A DNA stretch of 64,000 nt from Psychroserpens sp. Hel_I_66 (GTDB taxonomy: Bacteria; Bacteroidota; Bacteroidia; Flavobacteriales; Flavobacteriaceae): NCBI RefSeq assembly GCF_000799465.1, contig NZ_JUGU01000001.1:2810501-2874500 (forward strand), given 5' to 3'. Below the pieces are notes generated by a model. It had not been told where the DNA came from. It did no database searches and worked only from the letters and a program-made list of their open reading frames with translations. The translations under genes were made by a program, and so were the position numbers. Shown here piece after piece: positions 11,234-24,905 of the stretch (position 1 is the first letter of the stretch; each line of letters opens with the position of its first letter).

Positions 11234-11241
11234 TAGATTTG
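11234..11241 (+). promoter_or_regulatory. -7 element of the receptor/A2M operon
   Basis: TAGATTTG matches TAnnTTTG, 20 bases before the ATG at 11262. It lies between a terminator and the receptor gene, where a new transcript must begin. Confidence 0.5.
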
Positions 11242-11261: not shown

Positions 11262-14087
11262 ATGACTCGATTTCTACTTTTTATCTTCTTAATCTCTTCA
11301 ATAGCATATTCACAAGAAGGCATTGTCTCCGGAACATTAAAATCACAAACAGACGGGTTGCCATTACCAGGCGTGAGCGTCATTGTAAAAGGCACAACAA
11401 GAGGCGTGCAAACCGATTTTGATGGTTATTACCGTATCAAATGTTGGGTTGGCGAAACGCTTATTTACAGTTTTGTAGGGATGAAATCTCGTGAGGTGAG
11501 AGTGACGCCTCAGTTATTTAAAAGTCAAACACATGACGCGATTATAGAGGAAATCCCTGTTAAACCCATCGAAAGCGATGCGTATAAAAAAGCCATAAAA
11601 GACAAGACAAGTGCTAAACTATTGATTCCCGATTTACAACAAACCAATCGTACCTACAATAAACTAAATGATTATCAGTACCAAAAAATTAAACATATTG
11701 ACGTAAAAAACAAAACCGTAAACTTTACCTATTTTGATCCCAGTATTTTTTATGAAGTTGGCTTTAATAGTATTTTTGGAGTTCAGTATTTTAAGGATAG
11801 AAATCTTCCAAAGCTCCAATCTACCTATGCGCAAGGTGTATCTCAAAATGGGGAACTCACATTTCAAGGTGCAGATACTGGGAATCCGTTTTCATACGGA
11901 CCAAAAATTAGCAATTTAGAATTTGATGGCAGTAATTACGAATATGATCTAAACGGTCAATTAGTTGCGTTGGGAGCAGGTAATGGCAATTTGGCAAATC
12001 GTTATGATAATTCGGTTTTAGACACTTCTATTAAAACGTCAAACCATTTGTTTTTTAATATGTCTTCAGAAAAAAGCCTCATCGAACTGAATTACATAAA
12101 TACAACACTAAAAGATGTTTTTAACAGGGAACAAAGCCAAGGAAATGATTTAAGTTTCTCATTTAAAAGAAAAGGTAAAAGCATCAATAATCTTAACTGG
12201 ATGGCTTTTGTAAAGTATGGCGATTTTGAAAACAACCAACCCAATATCAACGGATTCATAAATAACGTTTTGCTCAATACTTGGGCAACACCTCCAACGT
12301 TTAGCAATAATCAAGGTACTGTTCTTCAAGATTTCTCTCCTCGTCGCTTTAATGCAAATTTTAATAATCCCAATTGGCTACTTGGCAATAATCAAAACAG
12401 CGATACCAATCAATTCTTTATTGCAACCCTTCAAAATGACATAGATCTTTCAGAGAAAATAAACATTGAAAGCAACCTGAGTTATACTCAAAATAAAAAC
12501 ACCCAGAATTTCGGTTTAATAGCAACTACTGCTGGATTTGAAGATGGTTATCTAACTTCAAAATCTATAAAAAATGATGATTTCAATGCTTTATTAAAAT
12601 TTCATTTTAAAAGCAGGAGATACAATCCGTCCATTGAGGCTGTCTCGCAATTTGATTTTTCTTCGGAAAAAATGAACTACGCATTCAATGAGGCTTCTGG
12701 TTTTGCGCCATTTTCATTTCAAAATCCAACTACAGAAAACTCCAACACTACAACACTTACAAGATCGAGTCTAAGATTGCTGAATTCTTGGGCAAAGGAT
12801 TTTAAAAAAGAACATATTAAAATTACTCTTGCCAATAATTCATACCTCTCCTCCATTCAAAATAACAAGTGGTTTTTGCCATATCTTGAATTAGAAATTG
12901 ATGTGGAAGAACTTTTAAATATTAATTTTCTTGATCTTTTCAGCTTAACTGCGACAACATCTTACGATGTGAAAGAACCCCAACTATTCTATAACAATAC
13001 AAGTCATAACAGTCTTTTATTTACTCCAGAGCAAAGTCTTTCTTACACCACAAATAATGATCTTTTTTTAAGTAATACGCTTCAATTAGAAGAAAAACGC
13101 CACTTTGAATTAGGTGCAACATTAGACTATTATTTATTTGATACATCTTTTGAATTTACTGCTTCATATTACAATTCTGAAACCAAAGGTTCTGTCTTTC
13201 CTGTTTTGGAAAATAACACGTTTTCACTTCAAAACACCGCAAATATTAGCAACAGTGGCTTTGAATTAAATCTAAATACAAACGTCTATTTAGATTATCA
13301 ATTTTACTATTCACCAAGTATTGTATTCTCCACATACAAAACCAAAGTTCTTAAACTATACAATGATGCTGAAATAATCCCAATCGCTGGATTTTCTTCA
13401 GTATCAAAAAACCTAATTGCTGGAGAACAGGCAGGTGTTATTGTTGGATCTGCATATGAAAGAGATGCACAAAATAATATGATTATCGATGATGATGGAT
13501 TTCCAATAGTGGCTTCCGAAGAAAAAATAATAGGCAATCCTATTCCAGATTTCAATTTGGGTTTTGAAAACAACCTTAAGTTTAAAGACTTTAATCTCAA
13601 TTTTGTTTTCGACTTTCAAAAAGGTGGTGATGTTTGGAACGGAACACAAAATACACTCAATTATCTGGGCACCTCACAACAATCGGCAAACGAGAGAACC
13701 ATCACAGATTTCATTTTTGCAGGTGTCAATCAAGACGGTTCCCAAAACACAATTCCTGTTGATTTCTACAACCCTGAAAACGATATTTCACAAAACAGAT
13801 TTGTGCGCTACGGATTTTCGGGAGTTGACGAAGATTCTATTGAGGATGGGAGTTATATCAATCTAAAATCAATAGCACTATCCTATAAAATCAACAGAAA
13901 AAACGACCATAAGTTTTTTAGGGAAATTGATGTTACTCTCTACGCCAATAACCTCATCACCTGGACTGCTTTTGAAGGCGCATCGCCTTATAGAAACCTC
14001 TATGATTCTCCATCTGGTCAATCTTTAAACTTTTTTAATATGCCAATTACAAGTGAAGTTGGTTTTAAACTCAACATTAAAATATAA
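11262..14087 (+). CDS. SusC-like outer-membrane barrel lacking a plug domain
   Basis: 941 residues. Signal peptide 1-17 (ending SIAYSQ). Residues about 20-93 form the carboxypeptidase-regulatory-like domain of SusC proteins (GLPLPGVSVIVKGTTRGVQT, FDGYYRI, YSFVGMKSREV). A normal SusC then has a TonB box and a plug of about 120 residues (DEVVVVGYG, LQGR, VLKDASATAIYG). None of these is present. Instead a 60-residue linker leads straight to the barrel start (LPKLQSTYAQGVSQNG, PFSYGPKISNL). The remainder is beta-barrel, including LNFVFDFQKGGDVWN and the C-terminal strand EVGFKLNIKI. The length equals a SusC minus its plug, and the frame is open throughout. The next gene, four bases away, carries the missing plug. 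No SusD gene is adjacent. Confidence 0.85.
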   Translation: MTRFLLFIFLISSIAYSQEGIVSGTLKSQTDGLPLPGVSVIVKGTTRGVQTDFDGYYRIKCWVGETLIYSFVGMKSREVRVTPQLFKSQTHDAIIEEIPVKPIESDAYKKAIKDKTSAKLLIPDLQQTNRTYNKLNDYQYQKIKHIDVKNKTVNFTYFDPSIFYEVGFNSIFGVQYFKDRNLPKLQSTYAQGVSQNGELTFQGADTGNPFSYGPKISNLEFDGSNYEYDLNGQLVALGAGNGNLANRYDNSVLDTSIKTSNHLFFNMSSEKSLIELNYINTTLKDVFNREQSQGNDLSFSFKRKGKSINNLNWMAFVKYGDFENNQPNINGFINNVLLNTWATPPTFSNNQGTVLQDFSPRRFNANFNNPNWLLGNNQNSDTNQFFIATLQNDIDLSEKINIESNLSYTQNKNTQNFGLIATTAGFEDGYLTSKSIKNDDFNALLKFHFKSRRYNPSIEAVSQFDFSSEKMNYAFNEASGFAPFSFQNPTTENSNTTTLTRSSLRLLNSWAKDFKKEHIKITLANNSYLSSIQNNKWFLPYLELEIDVEELLNINFLDLFSLTATTSYDVKEPQLFYNNTSHNSLLFTPEQSLSYTTNNDLFLSNTLQLEEKRHFELGATLDYYLFDTSFEFTASYYNSETKGSVFPVLENNTFSLQNTANISNSGFELNLNTNVYLDYQFYYSPSIVFSTYKTKVLKLYNDAEIIPIAGFSSVSKNLIAGEQAGVIVGSAYERDAQNNMIIDDDGFPIVASEEKIIGNPIPDFNLGFENNLKFKDFNLNFVFDFQKGGDVWNGTQNTLNYLGTSQQSANERTITDFIFAGVNQDGSQNTIPVDFYNPENDISQNRFVRYGFSGVDEDSIEDGSYINLKSIALSYKINRKNDHKFFREIDVTLYANNLITWTAFEGASPYRNLYDSPSGQSLNFFNMPITSEVGFKLNIKI

Positions 14088-14091
14088 CGTT

Positions 14092-17000
14092 ATGAATACT
14101 ATAAAAAACAAACTCAAATTGTTGCTTTTTGCAATAGTTACCACCTTGTCTTTTACTGCTTTTAAAGCTTACAAAAAGACGATGGCTCCAGTCGAAAAAA
14201 TCTATACACAAACCGATAGACCTTTTTATTTTCCTGGCGAAACGATTTGGTTCAAGTCGTATTTGGTAAATCAAGATCACACGATTTCTAATATTAGTGA
14301 TGTGGTGCATGCACAGCTCATTTCTCCAAGAGGCACAGTGGTCAACTCACTTAAACTTGCTGCAAAAGACGGTTACGTGTATGGCGATTTTTATGTGGAT
14401 TCTAATTGGGTTGGTGGCATATACACACTAAAAGTGTTTACAAATTGGATGCGAAATTTTGGAGAAGACTCCTTTTTTACAAAACAAATAACTGTACAAA
14501 AAGTCGTAAAACCCAACTTGCTATTAAAATTAGAATTTGAAAAAGAAGGCTACGGAAAAAGCTCTGATGTCATCGCCAATTTCGAAGCTAAAGATTTAAA
14601 CAATAATCTGTTAACAGAAAAAGAAATCACTTTTGAAGTCACCATCAAAGGAGAACATTTATTGACTCAAACCATTAAAACCGATGCCTACGGAAAAGCA
14701 AAACCTACATTTACTTTACCCAATGATTTAGAATCTACAGATGTGGTGCTCAATGTGCTGATACCGCACAATGGCAGTACAGAAGCTATTTCACGTGCAG
14801 TACCTATAGTTTTAGATACTATCGATCTTCAGTTTTTTGCAGAGAGCGGACAACTCATCGCTGGCACAGAAAACACAATAGCCTTTAAAGCCATCAATGA
14901 GTTTGCAAAACCAGTTGATGTGAGTGGCGATATCGTAAATGGAAAAGGTCAAATCGTTGCTAATTTTTCCAGTTTTCACGACGGGATGGGAAGTGTTACG
15001 ATTTCCGCAGAAAAAGGAGAACAGTATGTCGCCAAATTGAAAACACCATTCGTTTCTACTAGAATTGTAAGATTGCCACAAGTTGAAAATAAAGGCACAC
15101 GGTTTACTGTAAAAACCCAAAATTCTAAAGCAGAACTCAAGCTTTTTTCTTCGGAAAATGAGCCTTTACTTTTAGAAGTATCAAATGCAACAGCTGTCTT
15201 ATTTCAAAAGAAAGTGACACCAAATAGAAAGCCAATTAGTATAGATACTGAAGATTTTCCGATGGGGATTTCCACCTTCAGTATTAAAAATTCAAAAGGA
15301 AACATCGTTGCAGAACGGTTGGTTTTTATCAATGCTAACAAAGAATTGTGTATTGATATCGAGATGGAAAAAACCGTTTACCAAACTCGTGAAAAAGTAA
15401 ATTTGACCATAACTACCAGCGATTCTAACGGAAACCCCATACCGTCAAATCTGTCAATTTCGGTTGCAGACAATAAATTATTGTCCTTCGCAGATGACAA
15501 ACAAGATCATATTTTATCTTACTTATTATTGTCTTCAGAATTAAAAGGAAAAATCCATGAACCGAGTTTTTATTTTAATCCAAATGAAGAAAAATCTACA
15601 GAGGCTTTGGATTATCTTATGCTCACCCATGGTTGGAGAAATCACAGAGATGAAGCAAAAGCTAACATTGAAACGACCTCTTTTTTACCAGAGCAACATG
15701 CCACACAATCTGGTTTTATTGTAGATAAAAAAGGAAATCCTACTACTGCACATTTACTTTTATTGGATCAATTTGGCAATAAAATACTGGTTTTTGACAC
15801 AAAGGATGATGGCTCATATTCCTTCAAACTTGGCGATAATCGTTCTCTGGTTTTATTGGCTTACCGCGATGACAAAACACCGGTAACCATCAAAAAATTT
15901 GAACTCAACAGAAATCAAATTGCTAATCAAAAATTGGTTGAAAATGAAATGAACACCAAAAAAGTTGAGACCTTTAAAACTAAAGACAAATCCCCTAGGG
16001 CAATTACAAATGAGCAGCAAGCAGTGGCGTCAATCGCTATGGATGAAGATCAATCGGCTTTAGATGAAGTTGTCATAACAGGTTACGCTGGAGCAACCAA
16101 CAGCAGTAAAATCACAAGTGCTGTAGCAACAGTTAGTAGTGAAAGTATTATTTCTGTTCCAACAAATTCTATTGACCAGTTATTGCAAGGTCAGGCAGCA
16201 GGTGTAAATGTATCTACTGGCTCTGGGCAACCTGGACAGAGTGCGACGATTCTTATTAGAGGTAGAAATAGTCTTTCTGGTGATGTTGAGCCCTTGTTTA
16301 TTGTTGATGGTGTTCCTGTTGATCAAAGTAATTTTAGAAACTTGAGTTCTTCAAATATCAAATCCATGACTGTTCTCAAAGATGCAGCTGCCACAGCAGT
16401 TTATGGTAATCGAGCTGCTGGAGGTGTTATTGTTATCTCAACAAACAATGGTTATTATATTAATAACTACGGGAAGAAAAAACTCAATAACAGAAAATAC
16501 AAGAACTATGCTGTTGAACAATTCACTTTTTACAAACCTATCGGAATTGATCAACCCAAACAGTTTTATATCCCAAAATATGAATCTAAAGATGTACCTG
16601 AGGAGCGAACAGATTTTAGAGAAACCATCTATTGGAACCCTGTTGTTCAAACCGATGAAAATGGAAAAGCAGAATTAGAATTTTACAACAGTGATGCCAT
16701 CACCTCTTTTAAAATTACTGCGGAAGGTATAAGCTATAACGGGAAACTTGGCAGAATAGAAAAGACCTACGCTACCAAAAAATTATTGAATGTAGATTTC
16801 AAGGCACCAAACTATATGGCTCTTGAAGATGAAGTCATTTTACCAATAACAATCATAAATAACACAGAAAACCCTATCGAAGCAGATTTGAATATCTCGT
16901 TACCAGAACATTTAAAATTTGCTAACGATTATGAAAAGAAAGTAAGCATTGCTGCTAATAGTTCCGTATTGAAAAATGTTGCTGTGATCCCAGTTAAAAC

Positions 17001-18675
17001 GGTTAAAAATACCACGATATATATTTCAGTAAAATCAAAAAAGCACAGTGATATTGTCAAAAAAGAAGTCACAATTTTGAGTCCGTATTTTCCAACAGCA
17101 ACATCAATTTCTGGATCAAGCTCAAAAGCTTTTAAGTTTGATATTAACAGTGTTGTACCTGGAAGTCTTCAAGCAGAATTCAATTTATACACAGATGTTA
17201 TTGGCGATGTGATGGATGGAATTGATGCACTTATTAGAGAACCTTACGGTTGTTTTGAGCAAACCTCATCGTCAACCTACCCAAATATTATGGTGCTTCA
17301 ATATCTTAAAGAATCTGGAAAAAGCAATCAAGAAATTGAAGCTAAGGCATTAGATTTTATTGAAAGAGGGTATAAAAGACTTATTAGTTTTGAAACCAGA
17401 GAAAATGGATTTGAATGGTTTGGAAAAACGCCTCCTCACGAAACCTTAACTGCTTATGGCGTTTTGGAATTTACAGAAATGAAATCTGTTTTTGATGGCG
17501 TCGATCAAAAAATGATCGATAGAACCGTGAAGTGGCTCATGAGCAGAAAAGATGGAAATGGTGGTTTCAAAAAAAGCGAAAAAGGCTATGATAGTTTTAG
17601 AAGTTCTACCATTGATGTTGCCAACGCTTATATCGTGTATGCGATTTCCGAATCTGGAGTTGATGCCAACGTTAGTTTTGAGTACCAAACTGCTTTTAAA
17701 GATGCTTTAAAAAGTAAGGATACCTATAAAATGGCCATGATGGCATTGGCAAGTTATAATTTAGAAGAGACCGAAAATGCAGCAGTATTACTTTCTGAAA
17801 TTAAAAAGAATATCTCTACATATGATTTCGACAAATTACCAGTTGAAGAAACCATCACAAAATCTTACGGAAATGCTAAAAACTTAGAAACTACAGCGTT
17901 TACATTACTAGCATTGATGCGAGAAAAAAATCCAGATGACGCTCTTATTGCAAAAGGCATTGAGTATTTAGTAGGCCAAAGACAACATAATAGATTTGGC
18001 TCTACACAATCTACAGCAATGGCTTTAAAGGCTTTGATTACTTATACAAAGCAACAGAAACAAAAGGTGATCAATGAAAATGATTCCGTAGAAATCGTAA
18101 TTAACGGGAAGTCATTAAATTCAAAATTACAAATCAGTGCTAATGGTAAAATTACTGTTGACGGTTTGGGTGCATATTTAAAACAAGGCAAGCAAAACGT
18201 TGTGGTTAGATTTAATAATGAAAAATCAACGTTTCCTTATACTATGGCGATTGGTTGGGACAGTTATGTGCCCGATTCTTCGACCACTCCATTTCTGGAT
18301 TTAAAAACCAGTGTTGCAAATCAATCATTTAATGTTGGTGATAATGTGAGTATGACGATTGATGTCAAAAATTTAAAAAACGAATCGTTGGGAATGGTGA
18401 CTTCAATAATTGGGTTGCCATCTGGAACGACCGCACAACCATGGCAATTAAAAGCTATTTTGGAAGAAGAGAAAGTAGCGTATTACGAGATTTTTGATAA
18501 TTATCTGGTTTTTTATTGGCGATCATTTAACCCGAAAGAAATTAAGACAATTCGATTAGATCTTAAAGCTGATATCGCTGGAAAGTACCAAGCTCCTGCC
18601 AGCACTGTTTACCCCTATTACGGTGATGAATTCAAAACATGGATCAAAGGAAATACCGTTGAAATTTTAAATTAA
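14092..18675 (+). CDS. Alpha-2-macroglobulin-like protein with an embedded TonB plug
   Basis: 1527 residues from the ATG at 14092. An N-terminal hydrophobic signal (KLLLFAIVTTLSFTAF, no lipobox) precedes macroglobulin domains starting EKIYTQTDRPFYFPGETIWF. Residues about 656-786 are a SusC-type TonB box and plug: LDEVVITGY (657-665), LLQGQAAGVNV, ATILIRGRNSL, LFIVDGVPV, MTVLKDAAATAVYGNRAAGG. The C-terminal half returns to A2M: FRETIYWNPVVQTDENGKAE, then a bacterial-type thioester site YGCFEQTSS with Cys1054 and Gln1057, then the alpha-alpha toroid (about 1050-1340). Bacterial A2M proteins trap proteases in the periplasm. It is the second gene of a two-gene operon with the plugless barrel. The start is preferred over a TTG-like codon at 14053 because it begins the signal peptide. 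Confidence 0.88.
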   Translation: MNTIKNKLKLLLFAIVTTLSFTAFKAYKKTMAPVEKIYTQTDRPFYFPGETIWFKSYLVNQDHTISNISDVVHAQLISPRGTVVNSLKLAAKDGYVYGDFYVDSNWVGGIYTLKVFTNWMRNFGEDSFFTKQITVQKVVKPNLLLKLEFEKEGYGKSSDVIANFEAKDLNNNLLTEKEITFEVTIKGEHLLTQTIKTDAYGKAKPTFTLPNDLESTDVVLNVLIPHNGSTEAISRAVPIVLDTIDLQFFAESGQLIAGTENTIAFKAINEFAKPVDVSGDIVNGKGQIVANFSSFHDGMGSVTISAEKGEQYVAKLKTPFVSTRIVRLPQVENKGTRFTVKTQNSKAELKLFSSENEPLLLEVSNATAVLFQKKVTPNRKPISIDTEDFPMGISTFSIKNSKGNIVAERLVFINANKELCIDIEMEKTVYQTREKVNLTITTSDSNGNPIPSNLSISVADNKLLSFADDKQDHILSYLLLSSELKGKIHEPSFYFNPNEEKSTEALDYLMLTHGWRNHRDEAKANIETTSFLPEQHATQSGFIVDKKGNPTTAHLLLLDQFGNKILVFDTKDDGSYSFKLGDNRSLVLLAYRDDKTPVTIKKFELNRNQIANQKLVENEMNTKKVETFKTKDKSPRAITNEQQAVASIAMDEDQSALDEVVITGYAGATNSSKITSAVATVSSESIISVPTNSIDQLLQGQAAGVNVSTGSGQPGQSATILIRGRNSLSGDVEPLFIVDGVPVDQSNFRNLSSSNIKSMTVLKDAAATAVYGNRAAGGVIVISTNNGYYINNYGKKKLNNRKYKNYAVEQFTFYKPIGIDQPKQFYIPKYESKDVPEERTDFRETIYWNPVVQTDENGKAELEFYNSDAITSFKITAEGISYNGKLGRIEKTYATKKLLNVDFKAPNYMALEDEVILPITIINNTENPIEADLNISLPEHLKFANDYEKKVSIAANSSVLKNVAVIPVKTVKNTTIYISVKSKKHSDIVKKEVTILSPYFPTATSISGSSSKAFKFDINSVVPGSLQAEFNLYTDVIGDVMDGIDALIREPYGCFEQTSSSTYPNIMVLQYLKESGKSNQEIEAKALDFIERGYKRLISFETRENGFEWFGKTPPHETLTAYGVLEFTEMKSVFDGVDQKMIDRTVKWLMSRKDGNGGFKKSEKGYDSFRSSTIDVANAYIVYAISESGVDANVSFEYQTAFKDALKSKDTYKMAMMALASYNLEETENAAVLLSEIKKNISTYDFDKLPVEETITKSYGNAKNLETTAFTLLALMREKNPDDALIAKGIEYLVGQRQHNRFGSTQSTAMALKALITYTKQQKQKVINENDSVEIVINGKSLNSKLQISANGKITVDGLGAYLKQGKQNVVVRFNNEKSTFPYTMAIGWDSYVPDSSTTPFLDLKTSVANQSFNVGDNVSMTIDVKNLKNESLGMVTSIIGLPSGTTAQPWQLKAILEEEKVAYYEIFDNYLVFYWRSFNPKEIKTIRLDLKADIAGKYQAPASTVYPYYGDEFKTWIKGNTVEILN

Positions 18676-21509: not shown

Positions 21510-24500
21510 ATGAATGTAAAATTAGTCCGCTTTCTATTTTTCTTCATTCTTTGTTTCCAAATACAGGCACAATCTACAGATGTATCAATTGTGGCACAAG
21601 CACAAAGCCTAGGTGGGACGGATGTTTCTCAAGTAGAGATTTTTGAGGATTTTCAATATATAGTGACCATCATTAATTCTGGTAATGCGGTTAACAATGC
21701 CACATTTCAAATCACAATGGATGAAGATTTACAAAACCTTGCCTTAACGAGTATCACATCACAAAATAATATAGGTGGAGCCTCTGATGCTGGCGGTTTT
21801 AATTTGTCTGCATCTAATGTTTTAACGGGTTCGGTCAACAGTTTACCCTCAGACTCAAGTGTAGAAATTAAGATTGAAGTCACTGCACCTTCAACCGTTG
21901 GTGGTATTGCAATAAATGCGATTATCTCTCCACCTGACGGAACTACAGACACGAACACAAGTAATAACCAATCCCTAATTTCAATTGATGTTATTGATGT
22001 TGATATCAACTTTTCGGTCACCCATTCGCAAATTTCACCTGCAGCTGGTACACCAATTCCTTCTTGGAATTCTCCCGTTACTTACAGATTTACAATAACC
22101 AATAATAGTGAGATTGATTTTCCTGTGGAATTCATGAAAACCAAATTGAACTTATTAACGTCTCTAAATTTTGGTCGACCAAATGTTCAACTAATTTCAG
22201 TAGAATGCATTGAAGCAACTAACGGTACAGAATGTCCAAATGTTGATGGCATTTCTGGTTCACCTGTATTGGTTAGCGCAACTGTAGATATATTCAATTT
22301 TACAACACCTCATGTGTATACTGCTGGTGGAGCTGTAACCTATGAAATCGTTTATCAATATTTAGATCCTTCCTGTGCTATAGAATTAAATCCAATAAAT
22401 GTACAAAGCAGAGTAGAGATAGGGATAAATCATATTAACTCTGGAAATAGTCTTTCAAGTCCAATCGTTACTAATCTTTTAGAATCTGAACTTTGCCAAA
22501 CTACAGACATTTGTATTGACACCATTCAAATTGATCCCGATCCAACTATAATTGTGGATTGGAACCAAGAGGTAACATTTGAGACTACAGTATGTAATAA
22601 TGGACCTTTAGACGCAAATATTGCTTTCTTTCTTCAAAATTTAGCTCCATCCATTGAGTGGGAAATCCTTAGTGCTGAATGTATTGGAACAACGGGAACC
22701 ATTTTATGTGACGATGTAAATATTACCATTAATGATATTTTTTGGGTAAGTGATGCATTTGTAATGCCTGTTGACGCGACGGTAACAATTAGAACTATAG
22801 CCAGATTTCTTGAACCCGAATGTTCTATAAATACAGATAATAATCAAGCACTTATTAGAAGTGGCACAAATGTTTTGGAGGCAGATATTCTAGACTCCAA
22901 TTTAGCAAATAGTGCACAAAATGATTATGTGTTATTACCACCAACCTCTGCATGTGAAGTTGTGAATTTAAATGTCACAAAAACACAAATTAGTCCAGAA
23001 CTACCTAATGGTGGCTCAGAAGATAATCCAACTCAATTGGGGGAAATTACTTATGAAATTACTGTAACCAATCCAAGTGAAGTAGATACGTTTATTGAAC
23101 TTCAAGAATATATTCCAGGTCCTGGACTAATCCCATTTACAGGCACATTAGTCTCTGTAAACTGTGTTTCAACAACAGGATCTGCCAATTGTCTTGAAAT
23201 TCAAAATACCAATATAGGTATTGAATTTGATGGCGTGCCCCAAAGCGGAGAACCCGATATTTTTTGGGAAATTTTACCTGAAGATAATTGGAGTTTGCCA
23301 GCAATGAGCTCTGTTACTTTTCAACTAACAGTATTGTGGGATACTGATTGCTCTGTTGACGCTATCCCTGTTTTTAATGCAGTAAGTGTTGGAAATGCCA
23401 ACAGTAATACAGATAATAATTTTAATGATAATTTGGCACAAGTTGCCACTTTTTTTGCGCCATGTGTGGATTTGGTTGTTCAAACATTTCCTGAATTTAC
23501 GCAAGTTAATGTCAACCAAGATTTTGACTGGATTATTGATATCACCAACAGTGAAACAAGCTCAAATGCCATTAATATTGATTTTGAAAATACTGTAAAC
23601 GACGTATTTACGATTAATGGAACTCCAACTTGTGAAGTCACCAATGGGAGCGCAACCTGCATTACCAATCTTGATATTGTTTCAAATGTAGTTACGGGAA
23701 CAATTGATAACATGGAAGCTGCCTCAACCATTAGAATTAGAATTCCCGTAACTGCACCTAGTTTTGGAGGTGCCTATAACAATATTGCTGTTGCAACACC
23801 CAATGAAAATGATAATAGGGAAATATCTCCCGAGACCAATACCTCTATTAGTAATGTGCAAATCGTGGCTCCAATTCTATCTAAAAGCTATGATCCAACA
23901 ACAATTACAATAGGCGAGCAAAGTACGTTAACCTTTACAATTCAAAATTTACCAAATAGTCCATCTCAAAATAATATTTCGTTTACAGATATTTTTCCTT
24001 CGGAAATATCGCTGGTATCACCACCAGAATGGGTTGAACAAAATGGCTGTAGTACAACCTTTTTAGGAAATGCTGGAGATAATTTTGTTGGTGTTGACAA
24101 TTTGGTGCTTCCCGAAGGTGTGTCTTTTTGTTCTTTTAGTGTAGTAGTCACCTCAAATACTCCCGGAGTTTACCTCAACGATACCACAAATTTTGATGCA
24201 CAAAACAATATTGATACTTCACAAACAAATGCAACACTTACCGTTTTAGATGATCCTTCAAATGTGGATATTGAGGTTTTAAAAACCGTGAATCCTCAAG
24301 AAGTCTCTATTGGAGAACAGGTTACTTTTCAAATTACAATCTCAAATTTGGGAACCACTCAGGCCACTAGTATTGAAATACTAGACGAGTTTCCTAATGG
24401 TATGAACTTTATTTCTGCAACAACAACTGAAGGTTTTTTTGACGATACGAACTTTATTTGGTCTGTAGAAACCTTAGATCCAAATCAATCTGCAACGTTA

Positions 24501-24905
24501 ACTATAGTTGCCCAAATTATATCTGGAAATGAGTTGGTGAATGTCGCTTTACTTAATCAAGTAAATGAACCAGATAGGGACGATACTAATAATATGGATA
24601 GCGCAGAAGTTTTTGTAGATGTATGCCTCTTTATCCCTGATGGTCTTTCGCCTAATGGAGATGGTTTAAATGACACATTTTTTATAGAATGCATAGATGA
24701 GTATGTTGATAATCTTATAAAAATCTATAACAGATATGGTACCCAAATTTATGAGCGACGTAATTATGAAAATGATTGGGACGGAAGACCAAATATTGGT
24801 TTGCCTGAAATTTCAACGATACTTCCTGTGGGTAATTACTTTTATATTTTAGATTTAAACAATGGACAAAAACCAATTTTTGGTTGGGTGTACTTGAATT
24901 ATTGA
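21510..24905 (+). CDS. Large DUF11-repeat surface protein, T9SS type B signal
   Basis: 1131 residues. Signal peptide ending FQIQAQ. Several copies of a DUF11-like beta-sandwich of about 120-130 residues follow (for example YIVTIINSGNAVNNATFQI, YEITVTNPSEVDTFIELQEY, FQITISNLGTTQATSIEILD). The last 90 residues are a gliding-motility/CHU_C domain: FIPDGLSPNGDGLNDTF, IYNRYGTQIYERRNYENDWDG, LPVGNYFYILDLN. That is the type B signal recognised by the type IX secretion system, so the protein is exported and surface-attached. It is probably an adhesin. It stands alone, convergent with the gene at 24941. Confidence 0.9.
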   Translation: MNVKLVRFLFFFILCFQIQAQSTDVSIVAQAQSLGGTDVSQVEIFEDFQYIVTIINSGNAVNNATFQITMDEDLQNLALTSITSQNNIGGASDAGGFNLSASNVLTGSVNSLPSDSSVEIKIEVTAPSTVGGIAINAIISPPDGTTDTNTSNNQSLISIDVIDVDINFSVTHSQISPAAGTPIPSWNSPVTYRFTITNNSEIDFPVEFMKTKLNLLTSLNFGRPNVQLISVECIEATNGTECPNVDGISGSPVLVSATVDIFNFTTPHVYTAGGAVTYEIVYQYLDPSCAIELNPINVQSRVEIGINHINSGNSLSSPIVTNLLESELCQTTDICIDTIQIDPDPTIIVDWNQEVTFETTVCNNGPLDANIAFFLQNLAPSIEWEILSAECIGTTGTILCDDVNITINDIFWVSDAFVMPVDATVTIRTIARFLEPECSINTDNNQALIRSGTNVLEADILDSNLANSAQNDYVLLPPTSACEVVNLNVTKTQISPELPNGGSEDNPTQLGEITYEITVTNPSEVDTFIELQEYIPGPGLIPFTGTLVSVNCVSTTGSANCLEIQNTNIGIEFDGVPQSGEPDIFWEILPEDNWSLPAMSSVTFQLTVLWDTDCSVDAIPVFNAVSVGNANSNTDNNFNDNLAQVATFFAPCVDLVVQTFPEFTQVNVNQDFDWIIDITNSETSSNAINIDFENTVNDVFTINGTPTCEVTNGSATCITNLDIVSNVVTGTIDNMEAASTIRIRIPVTAPSFGGAYNNIAVATPNENDNREISPETNTSISNVQIVAPILSKSYDPTTITIGEQSTLTFTIQNLPNSPSQNNISFTDIFPSEISLVSPPEWVEQNGCSTTFLGNAGDNFVGVDNLVLPEGVSFCSFSVVVTSNTPGVYLNDTTNFDAQNNIDTSQTNATLTVLDDPSNVDIEVLKTVNPQEVSIGEQVTFQITISNLGTTQATSIEILDEFPNGMNFISATTTEGFFDDTNFIWSVETLDPNQSATLTIVAQIISGNELVNVALLNQVNEPDRDDTNNMDSAEVFVDVCLFIPDGLSPNGDGLNDTFFIECIDEYVDNLIKIYNRYGTQIYERRNYENDWDGRPNIGLPEISTILPVGNYFYILDLNNGQKPIFGWVYLNY

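Follow-up and report, generated by a model that had tools for sequence, protein, structure and literature searches.

Psychroserpens sp. Hel_I_66 carries two adjacent genes between which the parts of a SusC-type, TonB-dependent receptor are divided. The first, in the analyzed stretch of 64,000 nucleotides (the window), encodes a SusC-type beta-barrel that has no plug; the second encodes an alpha-2-macroglobulin (A2M)-like protein in which a TonB box and a SusC plug are embedded. Our favored reading, held with moderate confidence, is a naturally two-piece TonB-dependent receptor, in which the plug is docked in trans and the A2M guards the exit of the channel. The features of both genes are collected in Table 1.

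Table 1 Features of the plugless barrel gene and the plug-bearing A2M gene (window positions)
Feature	Position	Strand	Basis
TAGATTTG, possible -7 element, Bacteroidota type	11234..11241	+	read by eye
Plugless SusC-type barrel protein, 941 aa	11262..14087	+	ORF, Pfam, TIGR04056, structure model
CarbopepD_reg_2 domain (SusC N-terminal extension), residues 22-84	11325..11513	+	Pfam E 9e-14
Linker, residues 85-162, slot of TonB box and plug in intact SusC	11514..11747	+	Pfam, plug HMM, model
Beta-barrel, residues 163-941, aligns to BT1763 residues 211-1016	11748..14084	+	structure model
A2M-like protein with embedded TonB box and plug, 1527 aa	14092..18675	+	ORF, Pfam, TIGR04056
MG2 domain, residues 36-118	14197..14445	+	Pfam E 2.6e-11
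CarboxypepD-like Ig domain before plug, about residues 530-603	15679..15900	+	PF13620 in 22/47 relatives; model
Variable disordered linker, residues 604-653	15901..16050	+	pLDDT <50 at 612-682; conservation 0.32
TonB box LDEVVITGY, residues 657-665	16060..16086	+	alignment of 47
TonB-dependent receptor plug PF07715, residues 672-779	16105..16428	+	Pfam E 1.2e-16, TIGR04056
A2M domain PF00207 (MG7 region), residues 845-933	16624..16890	+	Pfam E 1.6e-12
Thioester-containing TED domain, residues 1033-1318	17188..18045	+	Pfam E 3.7e-33
Thioester motif C-F-E-Q, residues 1054-1057	17251..17262	+	GCFEQ in 82/82 plug-bearing A2Ms
Weak bMG10 match, residues 1412-1513	18325..18630	+	Pfam E 0.022, below cut-off

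The A2M frame runs from an ATG at 14092 to a stop codon ending at 18675, and 4 bases separate it from the barrel frame. The candidate promoter element upstream of the barrel gene was compared with TAnnTTTG, which we take to be the Bacteroidota -7 consensus. Elsewhere in the window, positions 21510-24905 encode a 1131-aa repeat protein whose C-terminal end, judged by eye, presumably resembles a gliding-motility/T9SS type B sorting domain.

A single receptor profile is shared out between the two chains. The NCBIfam SusC model TIGR04056 comprises 981 positions and has a curated cut-off of 368.25 bits; its positions 59-207 find their best match in residues 638-788 of the A2M protein (E 4.6e-52) and its positions 630-980 in the barrel protein (E 4.9e-46), with scores of 177.5 and 157.5 bits, respectively, each alone below the cut-off. 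Residues 636-787 of the A2M match residues 85-232 of BT1763 in sequence, and the barrel model matches BT1763 in structure over the residues given in Table 1. Such a division of SusC parts between the two genes is far beyond chance.

Profile and structure model both identify the first protein as a SusC-type beta-barrel. SusC/RagA transporters carry the plug in the same chain as the barrel, which is not the case here; the TonB box is likewise missing from the barrel chain, and positions 59-207 of the SusC model match the A2M protein only. The Plug family of Pfam gave no match in the window's barrel protein even at E ≤ 10, PF07715 was found in 0 of 52 barrel proteins scanned with Pfam, and an HMM built from 47 A2M plugs matched 0 of 80 barrel proteins at E ≤ 10, the window's own and 4 duplicates being among the 80. 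A plug was also absent from all 120 barrel relatives listed, of 208 found. A plug hidden in the linker, which is mostly of low confidence in the structure model, is ruled out by Pfam and by the surveys of 52 and 80 barrels. The barrel itself is kept at full length, with a SusC model match in 51 of 52 barrels. The N-terminal CarboxypepD domain gave no match in 10 of the 52, and L136, L138, L140 and others of about 846 aa seem to be without it.

In the second protein, MG domains, A2M domain and TED follow one another in the order of the A2M superfamily, as seen with Pfam, in the relatives and in the model, and the CxEQ thioester motif of the superfamily is present in 82/82 plug-bearing A2Ms. Its cysteine and glutamine were placed from C255-Q258 of a fragment starting at residue 800. 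The interval before PF00207 is taken up by the Ig domain, the linker, the TonB box and the plug, and the Pfam bait-region family A2M_BRD was found in 11 of 47 relatives. Between the variable linker and the plug, the TonB box forms the conservation peak (L657 1.00, E659 0.96, V660 0.91 and V661 0.94; n=47), and a loose TonB box pattern is matched by 74 of 76 plug-bearing A2Ms. Modeled by itself, the plug is of low confidence (pLDDT 45-66). The same genome also encodes an ordinary A2M (G000:C1:2719524-2721392; frame of 1872 aa), which is 24% identical. The preliminary description had read the first protein as an N-terminal domain followed by a barrel without TonB box or plug, a reading with which Pfam and the HMM agree, and had named residues 94-160 of the linker as a place to look for a plug; a profile search of the barrel protein found none. 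Its placement of a full SusC plug at about residues 656-786 of the A2M, 4 bases downstream, is borne out by Pfam (672-779) and TIGR04056 (638-788), and the thioester that it had located at Cys1054-Phe-Glu-Gln1057 was verified in that position.

To survey the distribution of the pair, 199 genomes of the family were searched for the A2M at E ≤ 1e-100, with few candidates scored per genome; 10 genomes had it, including that of the window, and the barrel matched in the same 10, plus a contig-end fragment in G079. A GTDB scan used the part of the A2M behind the plug as query, and was hence blind to plug and barrel. Its best 80 of 564 loci and 9 loci of the family search make 89 together, and in 79 of these the barrel gene lies immediately upstream in the same orientation. 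In two more (L096 and L132), a barrel neighbors an A2M whose frame is split into two, and the remaining 8 loci end at contig edges. After removal of 4 duplicate genomes (L061, L066, L067 and L068), 75 pairs and the window were retained. Barrel and A2M are 2-6 bases apart in 56 of the 75, overlap in 13 (taking the first start codon) and lie farther apart in 6. Labels among the best 80 of 564 include Flavobacteriaceae, Chitinophagaceae, Desertivirga, Saprospiraceae MAGs, Xanthocytophaga, Nafulsella and Bacteroidales MAG. The plug was detected as PF07715 in 47/47 A2M N-terminal parts tested, by HMM in 76/76 A2Ms (the 75 pairs and the window), and in 120/120 A2M relatives listed, of 1062 found. 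In a draw of 395 genomes across the phylum, with two candidates scored per genome, only 5 held a frame of the plug-A2M family longer than 1500 aa, which makes the distribution of the system wide but patchy. The specific two-gene unit proposed in the preliminary description is thus conserved far outside the genome of the window, and the co-occurrence that it had asked to be checked is seen in those 79 of 89 loci.

Barrel and plug are also absent together. The order of G441, sampled with 198 genomes, gave 28 A2M matches at E ≤ 1e-100 in 27 genomes, and 27 were fetched. L196-L199 have a plug, with a barrel upstream in each, and L216:3979-11095 (G655) is a divergent pair whose truncated, divergent plug, ISIRGSRSASTVYYVDGVRV, in the style of another TonB-dependent receptor, was missed by the HMM and read by eye. 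The remaining fetched A2Ms are plugless; in most of them the slot is filled by Ig-like and acidic sequence, and none has a barrel. L161 is plugless and without a barrel, and L162 is a complete pair. With these two included, the 26 loci with room upstream comprise 6 with both elements, 20 with neither and 0 mixed; rows dropped from the counts of the survey include L199 (same MAG as L119), L200 (same MAG as L157), and L219 and L220, where the 2.6-2.7 kb of upstream sequence is only about as long as one barrel. Over all distinct loci with room upstream, 83 have plug and barrel, 20 have neither and 0 are mixed, the 83 being the 6, the 75 pairs, the window and the 2 broken A2M frames less one duplicate, and including L216 with its plug read by eye. 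A whole-genome search of 25 genomes found a barrel ortholog (E ≤ 1e-58) only in G727, G736, G697, G712 and G655, which are the 5 with a plug-bearing A2M; in the other 20, the best barrel match was E 5e-31 or weaker. In an A2M tree of 62 rows built with the slot left out, a single branch (support 86) separates the plugless rows from the others. With a single change of plug and barrel on this tree, the data amount to one comparison, and the counts of 83 and 20 are therefore not independent evidence. A plugless A2M without a barrel, L212:6495-11156 (G754), holds a TonB box with the stump of a plug (LNEVVVAG...ALQGRVAGVQIQS), which points to loss of the plug and is probably its relic.

Other contents of the slot were observed as well. 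Two members of the plug-A2M family, L159:162-5201 and L157:3-3146, hold a TonB C-terminal domain there (PF03544; E 6e-13 and 2e-16), preceded by a CarboxypepD domain and by a sequence that resembles the box (LQEMAVVGFG or LLDEVVVTSAS), with the upstream region off the contig in both; L200, on the same contig as L157, has a TonB_C-like match in the slot and no barrel. It looks as though the slot of the A2M might offer a general way of connecting to the TonB system.

For the pair itself, we infer docking, a periplasmic location and a pull by TonB. The first gene would supply a SusC-type barrel without its stopper, and the second a putatively periplasmic thioester A2M with a complete SusC TonB box and plug between its MG domains and MG7. 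That this plug docks in trans in the barrel encoded next door appears likely, and we hold this step with good confidence. Because both ends of the plug of a TonB-dependent receptor face the periplasm, the A2M would hang under the barrel, on the periplasmic side of the outer membrane and within reach of TonB. TonB would bind the box and pull the plug, so that a wide channel opens and the A2M moves at the same time. In canonical A2Ms such as human A2M, the bait region lies before PF00207. The A2M, guarding the channel exit, might hold or covalently trap incoming proteases or other proteins, with a trigger that could be either the cutting of the linkers beside the plug, at the usual place of the bait region, or the pull of TonB itself; protease trapping and its trigger are a guess, and a somewhat doubtful one. 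A cut or pulled slot might arm the thioester, since accessible parts of the literature describe, for human A2M, a cut bait region that retracts from the central channel and so triggers collapse (PMC9352918), and a TonB pull strong enough to remodel a plug (PMC5413942). For BT1763, the accessible part of PMC7782687 reports that the TonB box VDEVVV is required for growth on levan and that the plug can leave the barrel whole. A complement-like trap triggered by force, which we rate as rather unlikely, would go further: with the bait segment replaced by a plug bearing a TonB box, a pull driven by the proton motive force of the inner membrane would act on this bait cassette, opening the channel and releasing the thioester in one stroke, and the thioester would capture whatever enters through the opened channel.

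It is unlikely that the plug docks only as a static outer-membrane anchor, in a barrel that no longer transports and on which TonB is inactive. No SusD occurs among the 12 neighboring proteins scanned (4 in the window and 8 from 8 other loci), as would suit such a role, and an alternative anchor would be useful to A2Ms of which 79/82 are without a lipobox-like motif (3/82 have one), the E. coli A2M being a lipoprotein according to the accessible part of PMC3328433. Against a purely structural role, the TonB box is conserved beside a variable linker, and the barrel has remained full length and recognizable to the SusC model.

The ancestry of the plug bears on whether it serves the neighboring barrel at all. 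A quick, unrooted LG+G4 tree of barrels was built from 28 of the 76 pairs and 28 intact SusCs, the latter limited to those found by the orphan-barrel HMM; 8 SusC-like frames with a plug match but no barrel match, and L168, a near-copy of L167, were dropped from the trees. The orphan barrels form one clade (SH-aLRT 100). The plug tree is poorly resolved, with p-AU values of 0.58 for A2M plugs as one clade and 0.72 for their grouping with those SusCs whose barrels are nearest, so that neither arrangement is rejected. Over residues 657-787 (131 residues), the window plug is 76% identical to that of an intact SusC of the same genome (G000:C1:2257750-2260791; L251:2748-5864, minus strand), which has a SusD beside it, and third codon positions between the two are near saturation. 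In a more careful tree, this SusC plug sits among the A2M plugs of Psychroserpens (98/97, 100/98). Plugs have thus passed between A2Ms and intact SusCs at least once, anciently and in one direction or the other. Owing to this exchange and to the poor resolution of the plug tree, plug and barrel need not share one ancestor, and the split of a single receptor favored in the preliminary description is only one candidate origin. The exchange implies that the A2M plug is of a working SusC type, and makes it harder to argue that the plug is finely tuned to its partner barrel. Across 47 pairs, plug distances correlate with barrel distances at r 0.42, versus 0.84-0.88 for the other A2M (MG) domains (partial r 0.21 versus 0.25-0.42), and there is therefore no sign of co-adaptation between plug and barrel.

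These observations lend themselves to a reading that we consider quite improbable, namely that the plug serves other SusC barrels, for instance barrels whose own plug has been expelled or cut, and that the neighboring barrel is one partner among several or has another role. The resemblance to the intact SusC, the supported exchange, plug distances that do not track the barrel and the occurrence of MG-plug proteins without barrel neighbors would all fit. Yet the barrel accompanies every plug-bearing A2M that has room for it and no plugless one, and 118/120 A2M plugs listed have another A2M plug as nearest neighbor when compared with 120 listed SusC relatives; for the window plug, among the matches listed, the nearest A2M plug is 78% identical and SusC plugs reach 77%.

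The preliminary description suggested that pore opening could be coupled to A2M exposure, wording that allows for an A2M on the cell surface. A barrel that exports or displays the A2M as an extracellular lid or protease inhibitor can be envisaged, as a large extracellular lid is usual on SusC barrels and the gene directly upstream of one pair (L162:2891-5206) encodes a 771-aa protein in which a plug (residues 188-291), again outside a barrel, is combined with a VWA domain and a T9SS sorting tail. We regard surface exposure as very improbable: from established knowledge, both plug ends and the TonB box must be periplasmic, and few of the A2Ms carry a lipobox-like motif. Chance neighbors, a local oddity, or the decay of a receptor next to an unrelated shuffling of domains have a negligible probability and found no support here, being ruled out by the conservation of both genes, their order, their full-length frames and their motifs over many genera.

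Each part of this system has known counterparts. Relative to SusC/RagA transporters (TIGR04056; BT1763, BT2264, RagA), box and plug reside on another polypeptide and SusD is missing from the neighboring proteins scanned. In complement C3/C5, human A2M and A2ML1, the place of box and plug is held by a bait or anaphylatoxin segment, and we know of no link between these proteins and TonB. Laboratory work has reportedly separated FhuA into cork and barrel, with the plug supplied in trans; that system was engineered and had no fused partner, whereas the present one is natural. Proteins with MG2, CarboxypepD, a complete or partial plug and MG7 but no TED (760-1350 aa) use the same slot and, unlike the pair, had no barrel neighbor in the loci read; they are often in tandem and spread over the phylum (L163:5440-8148, L164:6927-9641, L165:4694-7363 and L070:1837-10971, among others), and a plug tag alone thus does not require an adjacent barrel. 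Type I bacterial A2Ms (E. coli ECAM/YfhM, Salmonella A2M) differ in that here the slot holds a TonB box and plug, a barrel gene is paired and most members are not lipoproteins by motif; the E. coli type pairs with PBP1c, according to the accessible parts of PMC5764988 and PMC3328433. The open-access literature searched contains no description of the barrel/plug-A2M system, and the accessible part of a 2025 Flavobacterium BAM paper does not mention it. As far as that literature extends, all parts are known and the arrangement is new.

To our knowledge, no earlier natural TonB-dependent receptor in two polypeptides is known, and if the plug works in trans, this would be the first. Whether a plug leaves its barrel whole or only loosens would then become testable by genetics, because deletion, exchange or tagging of the plug would leave the barrel untouched, and the pair gives a defined plugless barrel for study. 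The pair also ties a complement-like thioester protein of Bacteroidota to the energized outer membrane: in many Bacteroidota, the stopper of an import channel sits in a neighboring complement-like protein, which suggests that energized uptake may be joined to protein capture.
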